Source of the DNA: Endomicrobium sp.
GTDB taxonomy: Bacteria; Elusimicrobiota; Endomicrobiia; Endomicrobiales; Endomicrobiaceae
DNA: 37,492 nucleotides
Reading direction: 5' to 3'
Assembly (NCBI GenBank): GCA_031264105.1
Contig: JAISEM010000025.1
Span: forward strand, 1-37,492
The number at the start of each line of letters is the position of its first letter. Within the stretch, counting starts at the first letter, position 1. Below, in pieces: positions 24,930 to 32,740 of this stretch. A program made the translations under genes and the position numbers. The notes below the pieces were generated by a model. The model did no database searches. It worked only from the letters and a program-made list of their open reading frames with translations, and had not been told where the DNA came from.

Positions 24930-26309
24930 TTATTGCTCTAAGATCTCTTCTACGGAACTGTCTACATTAGAAAGAATTGACTTGAAAAGTGCTTTAAACC
25001 ATGAATCCTCTTGACCTTTTTTACTTGTCTTTGAGATAAAAAGTTCATCAACATCTATTGCCGTAAGTTCTTTCTTTTTAGTGTTAATTAAATCTATTCT
25101 ATGTTCTGCATCAATCTGCTCTTGTTCAAAACGTGCATATAATCTGTTGCGTCTATTTTCCAATTCTTGATACTTATTTTGTAATTCGTCAACTTCTCTT
25201 TGGATACCTATAACTTCGCCTTGAGCGTTTGGAAATGCTAATTTATTTTTTGCCTTTGCTAATTTAGTTTCTAATGAGATTAAACTCTCGTCAATGGAGC
25301 TCAAAACATCATTTTCTCTATTCAATGTACTAATTGCAAAATTTCTTTTCAGTTCAGCGGATGTTTTTAATTTATCAAGTTTTTTTCAATTATAAGACGT
25401 CCCTGAAGCGCCATATTCCCAAGAACTCTATCCATGCTGTGATGTGATCCTATGCTGTTTCCATCAATTATGCTCCAATCAATTTGATCTCAGCCAAGAT
25501 CACCGCCAGTCAATACACCGTATCCAACTTTTGTGACAATATTCTTCTTATCTTCAATTATTATACTGTTTGAACCTAAAATTTCTTTAAATCTAGCTGC
25601 ACTATCTTTATCAAATGGTTTAGGTGCTTCAAATGTAATTACATCAGTAGGAATACCACCAGAAAGTTGTTTTACAAGAGGAGTCGTTGTAAGTGCTACA
25701 GCTCCACCTAATCTATGCCCAGTTAGAAGTATTCTTTTTACAGTTCCTTGTGCCAGAAAATGTTCGAGTAAATCGCGTATTTGGTGTTCCATAGCTTTGA
25801 AAATATTAAAAAATCCCCTATGTACATTAAGCTCTAGCCCACCAATAGTTACACTTTTATTAAAAAAGTCAGCGTCGCTAAGAGCCTCGTTAAGATTTGA
25901 TGTTTCTCTAAAAGAGATAACTAGAGTTTCTTCGCCGTTTATTTCTGTTGTATATGCAAGACCTTTTTCTTCATAGCTACTTGCATATAGCCCGAAAAGC
26001 CAAGAATTTGGAGCAATAAGAGTTCGGTATTCATTTGCCATTAAGCAAGGTAGGTATTTCGCTGGGATCTGTTACCATGTTGCCTTTACTGGAATATGCC
26101 GCTTTAGCTGCCATTGCTGCATTGTAAAGGAATTCGTATTTATCGAAAATACCATCGTAATAAGAAGGATCGCTGAGTAATTCTTCAGAACCTTCAAGAC
26201 CGCCTATTCCAATGAGCTTTTCCAGAGAACTGTTATAAGCTTGCGCTTTAGCACATATGCCAAAGCATGTAAAGACACTTACTAGAATCAACGAATATAA
26301 GAGTTTCAT
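24930..26309 (-). pseudogene. Secreted class 3 (alpha/beta hydrolase) lipase, multiply broken
   Basis: Read on the minus strand the pieces are: an N terminus with signal peptide (MKLLYSLILVSVFTCFGIC, then AKA), a lipase_3-type core (about 26041-25490), and a C-terminal coiled coil (24930-25325) with VDELQNKYQELENRRNRL. Damage: a frame change near 26035, an in-frame TGA at 25490-25492 (family-like sequence DQIDWSIIDGNSIG continues beyond it), and a frame change in the A run near 25380-25387. In addition the nucleophile elbow, GHSLGG in the family, reads GHRLGG, so the serine is lost. GGAGG precedes the ATG at 26309. No activity is expected. Confidence 0.85.
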
Positions 26310-26414
26310 AGTACCTCCACTAACTTCTATTTAATAAGAATCTTTCTCTTTACTTATAGGTTAGCTCGCCAAAATGGTTTGATTTAGGGGAATTGTGAAA
26401 TTTTTAAAAATCAT

Positions 26415-26458
26415 GAAATAAAAAATCTCCAACCAAGAATTATTCTATGGATGGAGAT
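26415..26458 (-). terminator. Terminator after the porin gene
   Basis: On the minus strand ATCTCCATCC pairs with GGTTGGAGAT (one A/A mismatch), and TTTTTTATTT follows. The hairpin lies about 30 bases beyond the porin stop and closes the transporter-manA-porin operon. Confidence 0.8.
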
Positions 26459-26485
26459 GGGGATACTTTTAATTTAGCTTAAATA

Positions 26486-27658
26486 TTAAAAATCGAATCT
26501 TGTTCTTATTCCTGCTACAAATACATTATGTTTAAGACCTGCGTTCCCTCCGCTAGGGTTTATGAAGTATTGTACAGCTGGTGTGATACCGAGATGTTTA
26601 TTTACACCAATTCTATAATAGAATTCAAACTCGGTTTCTGCTCCATTTTTATAAGTTGCACTTATATTTGAGTAGTCATGCGGACCATACATTTGACCTA
26701 CTGCAAAACCAACTGTATCGTTTCCTCTTGACCATACAGAACCTTGAATTTGCAATCCTAAATCCCAAGATGATGTTGGAGTTACCATATATTTATTATT
26801 TTTTGTATCATACGTAGTTACGGAGGGGTCTTTCCAAGAAAATCTTCCAAATACGCCGAGGAGTTTACTTACTTCATGATCAGCGCTTATGCCAAATCCA
26901 TAAGTTCCTGACTTTTTACTTAAATCGTTACAAGAATAGTGAAGGGTGTTATTGCTCCAAACATAAAGCTTGTAGTTGCCTTTTTTTGAAGGTTTATAGG
27001 TAAGCTGCAAAGCATTTACTCCATCTGAATCAATATGATCTGTTTTTGTCGTATAGTATCCATAAGATAAATCAAATATATTTGATAATGCACAGCTTAA
27101 ATTTAAAGCTACTCTCTGTGCAGGAGCTTCAATTATTTTATCTCCGTTAAAAATACTTGTAATAAACTGAGCATTTTTATCTTTTGAGTATCTATTTCCA
27201 GTAAAATTCGAAGCGAAATCTAGTTTACCAAAACTTATAATTAGTTTGTTGTCTAAACATGACTGTTGATAGTACAAATCTGTGATTTTTGCAAGCTCTA
27301 GTTCCCCGTTGAATGTAGGGTCAGTTACTGCGTTAGCGTTTGCATATGTCTTGACGTTTTTAGATAGTCCATTTCCATTACCGCCTTTAAAACGAACAAC
27401 CACTTTTCCATTATTTTCAAGAATCTTTTCTAATCTTAAATCAAATACATATACTTCTGTATTTGATCCATCTTTAGGCTTTCCTACATTGTCTCGAGGC
27501 GTCCCTTGGAAAACAAATGTGCCTTCACTAGAAATTTCTATATTAATAGTCTGCACTACATCTATGGATTTTGCAACAGTCTGCGCAAATATTTGTGAAG
27601 GAGAAATTAGGGCAAGAACAAGAGCCAAAGCTAAAATTTTCGCTATGAGTTTTCTCAT
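26486..27658 (-). CDS. OprB-like carbohydrate-selective porin
   Basis: This 390-residue protein has a signal peptide (MRKLIAKILALALVLALI, cleaved after IFAQ or nearby) and a mature part of alternating aromatic/polar strands typical of an outer-membrane beta barrel. It ends RTRFDF, with the terminal Phe used for barrel assembly. Segments such as LELAKITDLYYQQS, FGKLDFASNF and FAVGQMYGPHD resemble the OprB carbohydrate porin family. It is the last gene of an operon with a sugar-phosphate transporter and manA, so it probably admits sugars or sugar phosphates through the outer membrane. Family placement is good; substrate is inferred. Confidence 0.78.
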   Translation of the reverse strand: MRKLIAKILALALVLALISPSQIFAQTVAKSIDVVQTINIEISSEGTFVFQGTPRDNVGKPKDGSNTEVYVFDLRLEKILENNGKVVVRFKGGNGNGLSKNVKTYANANAVTDPTFNGELELAKITDLYYQQSCLDNKLIISFGKLDFASNFTGNRYSKDKNAQFITSIFNGDKIIEAPAQRVALNLSCALSNIFDLSYGYYTTKTDHIDSDGVNALQLTYKPSKKGNYKLYVWSNNTLHYSCNDLSKKSGTYGFGISADHEVSKLLGVFGRFSWKDPSVTTYDTKNNKYMVTPTSSWDLGLQIQGSVWSRGNDTVGFAVGQMYGPHDYSNISATYKNGAETEFEFYYRIGVNKHLGITPAVQYFINPSGGNAGLKHNVFVAGIRTRFDF

Positions 27659-27696
27659 CGCAAAATGCCTTTTTGAGTTTTATTTTTATCTACATT

Positions 27697-28680
27697 TTAC
27701 TGAATATATGCTTCCAGAAACTTAGCATCTCCAGTTAATAAAACAGTATTTTTCAAGGCTGCTGGCAACAAAACAGTATTGCCTTTGATTATTTCTTCTA
27801 TTTCGTGATTGTATTTCAAAGTAGCATGTCCATCAAAACATATTAAGATGACGAAAGAATCAATTTGTTTTAAGGCTTCTGTATTATATTTCTTTATCAA
27901 ACTTAAATCTACAGCTTGAACATTGAAATACTTACATTCCGCTACAGGCTTTACCCCAATCTTGTTTTCCGTATTTGGCACAGTGACAGCTTTTGCTGAG
28001 AAATCAATCGCATCAACTGACTCCTGTACATGTAACTTCCTACAATTACCATTTTTGTCTTTACGATTGTAGTCATAGATGCGATATGTTAGATCTGAAG
28101 TTTGTTGAACCTCAATTAGTATTATTCCTGCGCCAATTGCATGAACAAGACCAGCTGGAATTAGAAATCCTTCATTTGGGGCAACTGATTGATAGTTAAG
28201 AGCATCTTCTATCGTGTCATTTTTAGCTCTTCTAATGTATTCTTCTTTATCCAATTCTTTGCTAAATCCCAAAACCAATTTTGCACCTGGATCATTTTGC
28301 AAAACATACCACATTTCAGTTTTACCAAAACTGCCATGGCGCTCTTTTGCAAGAGCGTCATTAGGGTGTACTTGTACGGATAAATTTTCTTTAGCATCAA
28401 TAAATTTAACTAAAAGTGGAAATTCGTTACCAAACTTTTCTGAAACATTTTTGCCTAATATCTCAATGGCATTTGTTTTAAGGATTTCATTTAACGATGT
28501 ACCTGCAAGTTTTCCATTGGAAATTATAGAGATATTTCCTTTAACACCGCTTAGCTCCCAAGATTCACCAATTGATGACGAGTCTGTTTGCTTGTTATAA
28601 CAATTTTTTAATTTAGTTCCACCCCAGACTGTTTCCTTTAGAATAGGCGTAAATTTAAAAGGATAAAGAGATTTAATCAT
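27697..28680 (-). CDS. manA: Mannose-6-phosphate isomerase (class I)
   Basis: The 327-residue zinc enzyme interconverts mannose-6-phosphate and fructose-6-phosphate. It has the family start PFKFTPILKETVWGGTKL, the metal site SVQVHPNDALAKERHG, then IPAGLVHAIGAGIILIEVQQ and SDLTYRIYDYNR. The length is that of the short Firmicutes-type ManA. It begins three bases after the transporter stop and is followed after 38 bases by the porin, which ties it to the uptake of phosphorylated hexoses. Confidence 0.95.
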   Translation of the reverse strand: MIKSLYPFKFTPILKETVWGGTKLKNCYNKQTDSSSIGESWELSGVKGNISIISNGKLAGTSLNEILKTNAIEILGKNVSEKFGNEFPLLVKFIDAKENLSVQVHPNDALAKERHGSFGKTEMWYVLQNDPGAKLVLGFSKELDKEEYIRRAKNDTIEDALNYQSVAPNEGFLIPAGLVHAIGAGIILIEVQQTSDLTYRIYDYNRKDKNGNCRKLHVQESVDAIDFSAKAVTVPNTENKIGVKPVAECKYFNVQAVDLSLIKKYNTEALKQIDSFVILICFDGHATLKYNHEIEEIIKGNTVLLPAALKNTVLLTGDAKFLEAYIQ

Positions 28681-28683
28681 ATT

Positions 28684-30036
28684 TTATTTTTTACTTTCTT
28701 CTTTTGATATAAGGCTATCTTTTTTCCATATAAGAGTAAGAAGCATTATAGTTAGTATTACTGATAGACAACATCCTGTAAAAAGACCTTTCCAGCTATA
28801 TTCTGTAATAATCATTGCAGCTATCACACCGGCAAAGAATGTTCCTATGTATTCAAATATTCCAACAAAACCTATAGCAGCACCAATAGATTCTTTTGGA
28901 GAAAGACGACCAATGAGCGCTCCCATTGCAACGCTTTGAGGCCCTTCTACAAAGAAACCAACTGCAGCTAAAATAAATGCAATTACCCACCAGTGAGTTG
29001 TTACTGAAATAAACGCATACATTGCCCATAAGCTTGCCACTAAAAATACCAAATATATTATACTTATCGGTACGCAACGGCCTTTAAATGCTTTGTCAGC
29101 CAAGTATCCTGCAGATATGCCGCCAAATATGCCAACTATTGGCATAGCTATTAAAAGCGAGGCTGCAGCTGCTGGAGATATCCCTCTTTCTTTCATAAAT
29201 ATTGTAGACCAATCTAAAGATGTAAAACGTACAAAGTATAAAGCCATTGCAGCTATAGAAACAAGCCACAAGTAATAATTTTTAAAGATATATTTACTTA
29301 AAATTTGCCAATGAGAAAGATTGCTTTTTTCTTCTACTTTTACCAATGTACGGTCATTACGGAAATCTTCTATTTTAGGTAACCCAACACATTCTGGTTT
29401 GTCAGTCATTACAAATAACAATGCAACACCAATTATTAGTCCTAAAATTCCTGGTACATAGAAAACTGCTTTCCAATGGCCAGTTGCTATAAAAAAGGTA
29501 GATAAGAAACCTATGCCGGTAATCCCTGCCATTTTAGAAGAACTATGTAGAGTCCATATAGTTCCTCTCTCATTTTGTGAGAACCAATGAACTAGTCCTT
29601 TTGCGCAAGTAGTAAAACCCATTGATTGAAAGACGCCATTTAATCCCCAGAAAAACGCTAAGAGTGGTAAAGTTGGAAGATATGCGAAGAAAAGATTTAT
29701 TACGGAAGAAGCTATAAGACCAAAAGCTAAGAAAAATCTAATGTTACATTTATCAACTGCAAGTCCACTTATAAACTTACCTATAGCGTAAGTTATAGCC
29801 ATTGATGAACCTATAATACCAAACTCAAGCTTTGTAAGATGAAGATCATCAATAAAAAAGGAACCTACATAAGGGATATTTTTTCGTACGAAATAGTACA
29901 TCAAATAACCAACGTACATACTCAAGAACATTCGAATACGCCAATACTTGTACTTCTTTGACACTGCTTGCTCGTTCTTTATGAGATTTGGAGTAGTTGG
30001 TAATGGTTTAATCCACTTTGTTAACTTTGATGTCAT
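28684..30036 (-). CDS. Hexose-phosphate transporter, OPA/MFS family (UhpC/UhpT-like)
   Basis: A 450-residue transporter with about 12 hydrophobic segments. Recognisable stretches are YVGYLMYYFVRKNIPY, the FGIIGSSMAITYAIGKFISG loop, WGLNGVFQSMGFTTCAKGLV and the C-terminal FFVEGPQSVAMGALIGRLSP, all characteristic of the organophosphate:phosphate antiporters. An upstream in-frame start exists at 30066, but GGAGGG eight bases before ATG 30036 decides. Sugar-phosphate import through a UhpC-like protein is the proposed carbon supply of Endomicrobium endosymbionts. UhpC can also be a sensor, but no UhpA/UhpB genes lie nearby, so transport is likelier. Confidence 0.88.
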   Translation of the reverse strand: MTSKLTKWIKPLPTTPNLIKNEQAVSKKYKYWRIRMFLSMYVGYLMYYFVRKNIPYVGSFFIDDLHLTKLEFGIIGSSMAITYAIGKFISGLAVDKCNIRFFLAFGLIASSVINLFFAYLPTLPLLAFFWGLNGVFQSMGFTTCAKGLVHWFSQNERGTIWTLHSSSKMAGITGIGFLSTFFIATGHWKAVFYVPGILGLIIGVALLFVMTDKPECVGLPKIEDFRNDRTLVKVEEKSNLSHWQILSKYIFKNYYLWLVSIAAMALYFVRFTSLDWSTIFMKERGISPAAAASLLIAMPIVGIFGGISAGYLADKAFKGRCVPISIIYLVFLVASLWAMYAFISVTTHWWVIAFILAAVGFFVEGPQSVAMGALIGRLSPKESIGAAIGFVGIFEYIGTFFAGVIAAMIITEYSWKGLFTGCCLSVILTIMLLTLIWKKDSLISKEESKK

Positions 30037-30598
30037 GTCGCTCCCTCCATTTTTATATACAATCAAAATTTTTTAATGAAAAGAAAATACATATTATTTT
30101 AAGGAGCTTTTGGTTACGGGTATATTATTTTGCTAAGCACTACGTTTACCTTATTGTATAAATATTTTTTAGTAGATTATTCTTAATTGTAAAAAAGTTG
30201 TGAAAATAAGGAAAAAGTTAAATATAAGCAAAATTTAAGTAAAAGCTTGCCGTACACTGTTAGAACTTATCCCGGACGAGATTGAACGCCGTATATATCA
30301 GAATCTTTATTTATATTTTAATGCTATTCCATAGTGAAGTCAAAAGTTATAGCATGTCCTAATATATCCAAGCATATACTAATTTTGTTTATATTTTTCA
30401 AGCCTTTTTAGTGCATTAATAAACTCTGCATTATTAAATGTGTAAATCTTATCTATAGGTTTTAAGAAAAGAAATTTATTATATATCGGCATCTTATCGT
30501 AGCGCTAGTCTTAATCGGCAAGTATAAACTTAAAAATACAAAGTTAATTATATTTAGTATAATAACATAATATAACGCCAAAAGTTAGGGGGATGCGA
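30037..30598. other. 560-bp intergenic region with a gene remnant
   Basis: This region separates the divergent transporter operon and phoH-like gene. It includes a probable pabB remnant on the minus strand (about 30330-30492) and TATAAT (30556-30561), a possible -10 for the phoH-like gene. The part from 30061 to about 30300 is AT-rich and I see nothing firm in it. Confidence 0.7.
30330..30492 (-). pseudogene. Possible N-terminal remnant of aminodeoxychorismate synthase component I (PabB)
   Basis: An ATG at 30492 opens a 37-codon frame with KPIDKIYTFNNAEFINALKR and LEKYKQN, ending in TAG at 30379. The sequence just after the stop continues YMLGYIR and, two residues on, YNF. This is the pattern of the N terminus of PabB-type chorismate enzymes, where a helix ending in K/E-rich residues is followed by GYISYEAGYxF. 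After that, stops are frequent and the catalytic part is missing. The match is short and by eye only. Confidence 0.45.
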
Positions 30599-31871
30599 AT
30601 GAAAACATTTGTTTTAGACGCCAATGTTTTATTGCATGGCCCAGACTCAATTTTTTTTCTTTTCAAGACAACAAAGTTGTAATTCCAATGACTGTCGTTG
30701 AAGAGTTGGATTCCTTTAAGAAGTCTAATGATGAAAGAGGTAGAAGTGCCCGTCTTATTTCAAGAAAACTTGATGCTTTAAGGTCAAAAGGAAAGCTTTC
30801 TGACGGTGTAGCCATAAAAAATGGCGGATCTATTAAGATTGAACTGAACCGTCATGATGTTACATTACCTATCGGTTTTGTGGAACAAAAATCTGATAAT
30901 CAAATATTATCAGTTGCTTTGGGGCTTAAGCAAAAAGGCGAAAAAGTAATATTTATAACAAAAGATATAAATTTAAGAATCAAGTCTGAAATTTTAAACA
31001 TAGAAACGCAGGATTACGAAAAATCCAAAATTAAGATTGACGAACTGTGCACAGGTTGGAGAGAAATTTCAGTTCCTTCTGCAAAGATTGATCAGTTTTA
31101 TAAAGATGAGAAGTTGATTTTAAAGCAAGATTTTTATCCAAATGAATTTGTAGTATTAAAAGACGATGCCGGAAGTTCAAAAAGCGCTTTGGCTAAATAT
31201 TCTAGAAGAAAAAAAGCTTTGACATCGATTTTTCACCAGAATTCAATGCCTTGGGGTTTAAAGCCATTAAATATTGAACAGAAATTTGCTATAGAAGTCC
31301 TTTTGTGTAATGATGTTAACTTGGTAACACTTGTAGGGCTACCTGGCGCAGGCAAAACTCTTCTTGCTTTAGCATGATGCGGTTTACAAAAACTATAGAA
31401 GAAAGATATTTTCGTAAGCTTTATATAGCAAGACCAATAATCCCTATGGGTAGCGATATTGGGTTTTTGCCAGGTACTAAAGAAGAAAAACTTGGCGCTT
31501 GGATGGGTGCTATAAATGACAATTTTGAATTTTTGATGAACAAAGGGCGCAATGACGGTTTAAAAGCCGAAGAAAAGATAGACTGTCTTTTTGATTCTGG
31601 TCAGATAGAGGTTGATTCTTTAACGTATATAAGAGGGCGCTCTCTTCCACAGCAATACATTATTATTGACGATGCTCAAAATTTAACGCCTCACGAGATA
31701 AAAACCATTACGTCAAGAGCTGGTAACGGCACTAAGATAGTTTTGACTGGAGATCCGTATCAGATTGACAATCCATATCTTGATGCCTCTTCAAATGGGC
31801 TTACTTATCTTGTTGAGAGATTTAAAGGACAGGAGATATTTGGCCACGTAACGTTCTCAAAATTACTTTGA
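30599..31871 (+). pseudogene. PhoH-like PIN-domain ATPase, broken
   Basis: The intact family protein couples an N-terminal PIN nuclease domain to a PhoH ATPase. Here MKTFVLDANVLLHG starts the PIN domain at 30599. A run of eight T (30652-30659) shifts the frame; the next piece resumes with VVIPMTVVEELDSFKK and runs to the Walker A motif GLPGAGKTLLALA. A TGA at 31375-31377 and a missing base in the A5 run near 31390 break it again. The last piece has YFRKLYIARPIIPMGSDIGF, Walker B QQYIIIDDAQNLTPHE and ends VTFSKLL, shorter than the usual tail. The PHP gene overlaps its stop. Confidence 0.87.
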
Positions 31872-32740
31872 TGAATAGAGGTATAAATAATTCTTATATA
31901 GACATGCATATACATACATCTTTTTCCGACGGTGTTTTTACTCCAAAAGAAGTAGTTGAATATGCATTAAAAATGAATTTGTCTGCAATAAGCATAACAG
32001 ATCACGACTCTATAGATGGCATAGATGAGGCTTTTAGTTTTGCTTTGCACAAAAATATTGAAATTGTTTCTGGAATTGAACTTTCTTGCGAAGTTGAGTC
32101 AGACTCTGGAAAAAGTGAGATGCATGTCTTGGGCTACTTTATAGATCATAAGTCTGAACATTTAAAGAAAGCTTTAAATGTCTTCAAACAAGCAAGATAT
32201 GACAGAGCTATAAAAATATTTGATAAACTCAAAGAAAACGACGTAGAACTAAAAAATGCTGATTTTATTAACAATATTGGCAAAGTAGCGATAGGGCGGT
32301 TGCACTTTGCAAAAGCTTTAATTGAAGAAAGATTTGTAGGAAGTGTTCGAGAAGCATTTCAAAGGTACTTATCAAAAGATAAACCTGCATATGCTCCAAA
32401 ATACTCAATTTCTGCAAAAGATGCCATAAAACTTATTTTGGATTCTGGCGGTATTCCTGTTATGGCACATCCATATTATATGCACTACAGCGATATTGAT
32501 TTATTTAAATCCATTGTTGATTGTGGTCTTATGGGAATAGAAGCTTGGCACATAAAACATTCTGAAAGTACTGTAAAGAAATTTATTGATATGTCTAAGG
32601 AATTTAACGTTATTGCAACTGGTGGTTCTGATTGTCATGGCCCATTTAAAAAAGAAAAACCTATTATGGGAAAGATAAAAGTTCCTTATTCAGTATTGGT
32701 AAACTTAAAGAATGCAAGAGAGTCGCTTTATAAGAATTGA
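31871..32740 (+). CDS. PHP-domain phosphoesterase (RNase AM / nucleoside bisphosphate phosphatase type)
   Basis: A 289-residue member of the polymerase-and-histidinol-phosphatase family. Metal-ligand motifs run in order: DMHIHTSFSDG, ITDHDSIDG, GIELSCE, a middle IGRLHFAKAL, MAHPYY and GGSDCHG. The family hydrolyses 3',5'-bisphosphonucleosides or trims the 5' end of rRNA (the YciV/RnmA group). An in-frame TTG three bases earlier is possible, but the ATG overlaps the phoH-like stop as TGATG, a coupling junction. All catalytic ligands appear intact although the gene before it is broken. Confidence 0.85.
   Translation: MNRGINNSYIDMHIHTSFSDGVFTPKEVVEYALKMNLSAISITDHDSIDGIDEAFSFALHKNIEIVSGIELSCEVESDSGKSEMHVLGYFIDHKSEHLKKALNVFKQARYDRAIKIFDKLKENDVELKNADFINNIGKVAIGRLHFAKALIEERFVGSVREAFQRYLSKDKPAYAPKYSISAKDAIKLILDSGGIPVMAHPYYMHYSDIDLFKSIVDCGLMGIEAWHIKHSESTVKKFIDMSKEFNVIATGGSDCHGPFKKEKPIMGKIKVPYSVLVNLKNARESLYKN

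Follow-up and report, generated by a model that had tools for sequence, protein, structure and literature searches.

A transporter, isomerase and porin gene cluster in a likely Endomicrobiellum genome as a candidate operon for the uptake of host hexose phosphates

The 37,492-nucleotide stretch of Endomicrobium sp. DNA analyzed here (contig JAISEM010000025.1 of assembly GCA_031264105.1; the whole stretch is called the window) carries three adjacent genes on its minus strand, which encode an organophosphate antiporter (OPA1), the mannose-6-phosphate isomerase ManA and an OprB-family outer-membrane porin. We propose, with a probability of about 0.6, that these genes form an operon that imports phosphorylated hexose supplied by a protist host's cytoplasm. 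The porin would pass the anionic hexose phosphate across the outer membrane, OPA1 would carry it through the inner membrane in exchange for inorganic phosphate, in the manner of GlpT, UhpT and SLC37A4, and ManA would convert whatever part of this supply is mannose-6-phosphate into fructose-6-phosphate. The window OPA1 is a member of a clade with an altered binding pocket, a change that could allow transport of mannose-6-phosphate, either alone or alongside glucose-6-phosphate; the uptake unit is possibly shifted towards mannose-6-phosphate.

In the order of the minus strand, OPA1 (28684–30036) is followed after 3 bases by manA (27697–28680) and, after a further 38 bases, by the porin gene (26486–27658). 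This bears out the compact arrangement described in an earlier note on this DNA, and profile matches confirm the three families named there. OPA1 starts at an ATG with GGAGGG ahead; the mechanically called open reading frame (ORF) opens earlier, at a TTG at 30066. The product is a member of the major facilitator superfamily (MFS_1, 9.1e-47) that matches the UhpC-like profile PRK11663 (5.1e-88), the PgtP-type profile TIGR00881 (2.2e-87) and GlpT (2.3e-73), all three with scores below the curated cut-offs, which means that the profiles give no substrate name. The cut-off of the UhpT hexose-6-phosphate antiporter profile NF007107 is not reached either (180.8 bits vs 497). It also matches SLC37A4 (5.9e-52) and GlpT (2.4e-51), and the predicted model (mean predicted local distance difference test score, pLDDT, of 84.9 from an 8-sequence alignment) has the fold of GlpT, UhpC and SLC37A4. 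ManA is assigned to the short form of the type I isomerases; it scores above the TIGR00218 cut-off (154.3 vs 116.2 bits) and matches PDB 1qwr over nearly its full length (2.8e-48) with shared motifs. The porin lies above the gathering cut-off of OprB (PF04966; 82.5 vs 22.9 bits) and features an N-terminal signal-like segment and a C-terminal Phe; its AlphaFold model, built from just 4 sequences, has a mean pLDDT of 27.9.

Comparisons were made across 294 genomes of the phylum, 41 of them in the window's genus; the window's own genome (G000) comprises 986,526 bases in 54 contigs and is 82% complete. The three genes occur in the same order and on the same strand in G009 (94% complete) and G092. 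Ratios of non-synonymous to synonymous divergence between the window and G009 (Nei–Gojobori) are 0.27 for OPA1, 0.18 for manA and 0.30 for the porin gene, compared with 0.09 for pyrG and 0.27 for initiation factor 2 (IF-2), which indicates that all three are under purifying selection. The retained order and strand, together with these ratios, argue that the arrangement is more than chance. Downstream of the porin gene lies a Rho-independent-type terminator hairpin followed by a T run (26405–26460). Folding of 26405–26490 gave -16.5 kcal/mol (z -2.78), a value equalled by 4 of 200 shuffles, and the hairpin is also present in a sister species, Candidatus Endomicrobiellum guadaloupense (L005), with a pairing base in place of the stem mismatch, so the terminator proposed in the earlier note stands; a consensus terminator scanner with a loop limit of 3–8 did not report it. 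From the gaps, strand and terminator we infer a single transcript. Promoter-like matches between 25300 and 30800 were fewer than expected by chance (17 vs a shuffle mean of 23.2), and a promoter is therefore not demonstrated. The bases directly upstream of OPA1 (30037–30210) are conserved between the window and G009 and could hold a promoter and leader.

The closest named relative of the window OPA1 is that of Ca. E. guadaloupense (91% identity), followed by two Endomicrobium/Endomicrobiellum metagenome-assembled genomes (54–55%), which makes it most likely that the window genome is an Endomicrobiellum. Members of this genus are endosymbionts of termite-gut flagellates according to the available part of PMC11257099, and use of the transporter inside a host cell, as first suggested from the letters of the window, fits these relatives. 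In the same source, Mies et al. (2024) report two OPA transporters in Endomicrobiellum and interpret both as sugar-phosphate importers that spare ATP; OPA1 is placed close to homologues from Elusimicrobiaceae, OPA2 to ones from Bacteroidales/Opitutaceae. The earlier idea that ATP would be saved on phosphorylation agrees with that interpretation, and the core idea is therefore not new. Import of glucose-6-phosphate from the protist host had already been ascribed to Ca. Endomicrobium agilae and E. trichonymphae (PMC8809381), in passages that mention neither a porin nor ManA beside the transporter. The words porin, isomerase and operon are absent from the available text of PMC11257099, whose passages contain no porin neighbor, ManA or pocket variants, and no description of a porin and ManA neighborhood of Endomicrobiellum OPA1 was found in the literature searched. 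The new elements here are thus the porin linkage, the pocket variant, the covariation with manA and the exchange of OPA1; sugar-phosphate import by OPA1 in the genus was known. In our own tree, which is not the published one, the window transporter groups with homologues from family f13, which we take to be Elusimicrobiaceae, and not with OPA2. Its identity to f13 relatives is mostly 41–48%, and about 30% to OPA2-type rows; judged by this placement, it is the published OPA1. The window genome also holds an OPA2-type gene, which is in pieces with a stop on L131 (G000:C3:28000-40000) and runs into the contig end on L132 (G000:C36); the copy in G009 is open.

Alignment with characterized family members revealed a pocket that combines a conserved core with several replacements. 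The residues at GlpT R45, R269, K46, K80, Y38, Y42 and Y76 are retained, as are an R on transmembrane helix 7 and the RK motif on transmembrane helix 1, which is described as a hallmark of the family (PMC13046256, in part); roles of GlpT H165, R45, R269, K46 and K80 follow the passages available from PMC4598623. The window OPA1 carries K at the place of GlpT H165 and I and V at those of UhpT D388 and K391 (variant K168/E364/I388/V391 in its own numbering). I388 lies opposite SLC37A4 H366 in the alignment, a residue for which PMC13046256 and PMC13411879 describe contact with the glucose ring in some solved structures but none in another. All 13 distinct f13 genes examined have H at the GlpT 165 place, as do 13 genus genomes; K, or R in G008, is found there in 10 genus genomes (G012, G023 and G002 were typed from partial genes, and G143 was not assessable). 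There are ten columns where a residue shared by at least 18 of the 21 H rows never appears among the 8 complete K/R rows, and at eight of these, including the UhpT D388 place, the two groups have no residue in common. The K/R rows form a single clade (support 100/98) in a tree built without eight pocket columns. This tree represents G012 by two partial rows and omits the G143 pieces, the OPA2-type rows of G011 and G010, UhpT, two Francisellaceae rows, RUG807, four near-identical f13 rows and two duplicates. The pocket columns were chosen by GlpT and UhpT residue numbers, with UhpT D388 and K391 taken as pocket residues.

In the genus genomes that were searched, a manA gene of at least 60% identity was confined to G000, G009, G092, G156 and G012, all of which have a K-type OPA1. 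This amounts to 5 of 10 K/R-type genomes versus 0 of 13 H-type genomes (Fisher p 0.005 for 9 K/R rows, with G023 left out). According to the neighborhood reading, manA directly follows OPA1 in four of the five, the pair in G012 being at another locus. Well-supported branches provide just 2 independent contrasts in pocket type; over 200 pairings manA was concordant in 1.5 of them on average and never opposite. The association of manA with the pocket is therefore regarded as a lead rather than proof. In G012 (L068, L070), OPA1 is cut by contig ends and followed by manA, and the pair stands next to a serine hydroxymethyltransferase gene; the porin lies at pyrG instead.

Two further scenarios for manA were discarded. 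Remnants of manA were considered for the OPA1–porin spacers of G014 and G040, but tblastn found none there. Inheritance of OPA1 and manA as a unit from f13 was not seen: no manA adjoins OPA1 in the 5 f13 regions read, and in f13 genomes G072, G079, G111, G151, G192 and G253 the two genes lie either on separate contigs or some 0.6 Mb from each other, in a comparison that involves fragmented contigs and is not exhaustive. In G072, manA and a ROK-family gene share a few bases (L126, 4136–6228), which suggests a free-sugar kinase pathway, and a similar ORF precedes manA in L129.

Comparison of gene trees revealed a conflict at the locus. The IF-2 tree resolves ((G000,G009),(G092,(G005,G013))) at 100/100, with G092 joined to G005/G013 at 99/97 (G023 is missing, G020 is 42% filled, and G161, G182, G143 and G017 have long branches). 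The porin tree agrees with it, the branch uniting G092 with G005/G013 having 86/52 support, as does the ManA tree for G000, G009 and G092. The OPA1 tree conflicts: the window and G009 stand beside G156, G092 stands beside G023 and G020/G099, and G005/G013 fall outside the K clade. Non-synonymous differences per site between the window and G092 are 0.308 for OPA1, 0.102 for manA and 0.170 for the porin gene, and between the window and G009 they are lower for OPA1 (0.041) than for the porin gene (0.065). The tree conflict and these differences indicate that OPA1 was most likely replaced at this locus while the neighboring porin and manA genes stayed. G005 and G013, with an H-type OPA1 at the locus, lack manA. 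A fuller scenario, which we consider unlikely as a whole, is that pocket remodelling turned an OPA1 clade into a carrier of mannose-6-phosphate or mixed hexose phosphates, and that manA was retained solely in company with this carrier. The porin locus would have stayed in place while ancestral and new carrier alleles replaced one another there, manA persisting or disappearing in step.

The pairing of OPA1 with the porin recurs in the genus. OPA1 (at least 46% identity, partial genes counted) is present in at least 24 of the 41 genus genomes among the matches listed, with short fragments alone in G018. The porin follows OPA1 with nothing or manA alone between them in 9 of the 24 (G000, G009 and G092 with manA; G005, G013, G019, G004, G156 and G007 without), is separated by a 0.8–1.0 kb spacer in 2 (G014, G040) and is represented by adjoining remnants in 2 more (G136 and G056, by tblastn). 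It does not adjoin OPA1 in 8 (G017, G161, G182, G116, G008, G020, G099 and G012, where manA comes after OPA1), and 3 are not assessable, as the contigs of G023, G002 and G143 stop at or within OPA1. The pairs occur in three contexts: on the pyrG side, near rpsB (G004, G019), and with a tRNA synthetase and an AcrB-type gene (G156). An isoelectric point (pI) above 8 was calculated for 9 of 11 porins adjoining OPA1 versus 7 of 15 others, with G004 and G019 as exceptions to the basic pattern, and the second porins tested in G000, G009 and G013 are acidic. A basic porin would be suited to the passage of anions, but in view of the exceptions charge is given no weight as evidence. The second OprB-like porin of the window genome (L075, 5634–6857; G000:C54) has a pI of 5.0 compared with 8.7 for the one adjoining OPA1.

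Several observations weigh against the proposed uptake unit. No transport or binding data for any member were found in the literature searched, and PMC11257099 describes as uncertain what OPA1 and OPA2 carry. The porin family is present in sister genera without OPA among the matches listed (for example G047, G062 and G065), and G016, G044 and G104 have the porin and no OPA1 among the same matches; the porin is therefore older than OPA1 here and not tied to it. In G156, manA and OPA1 are on different contigs, and five K/R-type genomes lack manA (G020, 96% complete; G099, 90%; G116, 85%; G023, 69%, whose contig stops at OPA1; and G008, 52%). Two independent contrasts cannot reach significance, so that the link of manA to the pocket type is not secured statistically. 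No gene for phosphoglucose isomerase (PGI) turned up in the window's bin, and 6 of 40 genomes are without it. A gene for enzyme IID (EIID) of a mannose-type phosphotransferase system (PTS) is present in G000, G009 and G012 and could feed ManA. Loss of PGI with mannose-6-phosphate as the sole usable load is unsupported, since G009 has PGI on a 16-kb contig; this contig gave 17 short repeat-like matches in the window's bin, the longest of 243 bases, and short matches alone suggest that the absence of PGI there is probably a gap.

The EIID genes underlie the main rival explanation, which we judge somewhat unlikely: OPA1 and the porin would import glucose-6-phosphate or another organophosphate, as has been proposed for all relatives, and ManA would be a passenger acting on mannose-6-phosphate from the PTS. 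The position of manA away from OPA1 in G156 and directly after a ROK-family gene, with no transporter, in G072 is consistent with this. However, 13 of the 16 EIID-bearing genomes among 24 genus genomes examined lack manA at the 60% threshold, and E. proavitum, whose PTS is very similar, did not grow on mannose, as cited in PMC8809381. In addition, the occurrence of manA follows the pocket type of OPA1, and the two genes are 3 bases apart. A second explanation, which appears quite improbable, is that the altered pocket, with K at the GlpT H165 place, suits another phosphate ester such as a glycolytic C3 acid, a hexosamine phosphate or a bisphosphate, and that ManA is unrelated. The extra positive charge in the cavity and the ten discriminating columns, the UhpT D388 place among them, could be read in this way, but ManA is associated with the K/R type and the operon has no enzyme for another substrate. 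Supply of mannose-6-phosphate for GDP-mannose and surface glycans would be in keeping with the general role of ManA and with the situation in G004, where a distantly related manA-like gene (34%) lies some 6 kb away from a ManC domain, which is a separate matter, but is very improbable, as no ManC domain was found in G000, G009 or G012 and GDP-mannose synthesis is therefore unlikely there (of the manA-bearing genomes, the EIID and ManC searches covered G000, G009 and G012).

The proposed hexose-phosphate uptake operon shares elements with several known systems. OPA1 of Endomicrobiellum (PMC11257099) is from the same genus and transporter family, and E. coli UhpT/UhpC, GlpT and human SLC37A4 share the OPA fold and the phosphate-binding core. 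In addition to the K, I and V replacements, the window protein differs from GlpT by a P at E299, which is common to the whole OPA1 group, and no UhpAB-type regulator lies beside it in the window. Window ManA and PDB 1qwr match over nearly their full length, yet manA here is in a transporter operon and is patchy in the genus. The Pseudomonas gltBFGK-oprB operon, as described in the available part of PMC7927077, likewise co-encodes an OprB porin with an inner-membrane sugar importer, although that importer is of the ABC type and takes up free glucose, whereas the window encodes a sugar-phosphate antiporter. A porin–transporter operon is therefore not unusual, and the earlier note overstated how notable this arrangement is.

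Other features were observed outside the three genes. In the window, a class 3 lipase is broken into two overlapping ORFs (183 and 92 amino acids; 25490–26309, minus strand), and G009 has a single 460-amino-acid ORF at the same site downstream of the porin. PIN and PhoH2-like parts are spread over three ORFs with overlaps of a few bases (30688–32740, plus strand), which may reflect decay or an assembly error. In the single-contig genome G062 of a sister genus, an OprB-family porin lies behind nifH-like and FeMo-cofactor-type genes (L115, 4011–7502).

The general picture of endosymbionts living on host sugar phosphates is unchanged by these results. With regard to the diet of termite-flagellate endosymbionts, the covariation of manA with the OPA1 pocket gives a concrete, testable guess at a substrate, and the porin linkage singles out the outer-membrane channel that would belong with OPA1. 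If the scenario of carrier exchange at the porin locus were true, nutrient specificity would have been swapped in an endosymbiont through gene replacement.

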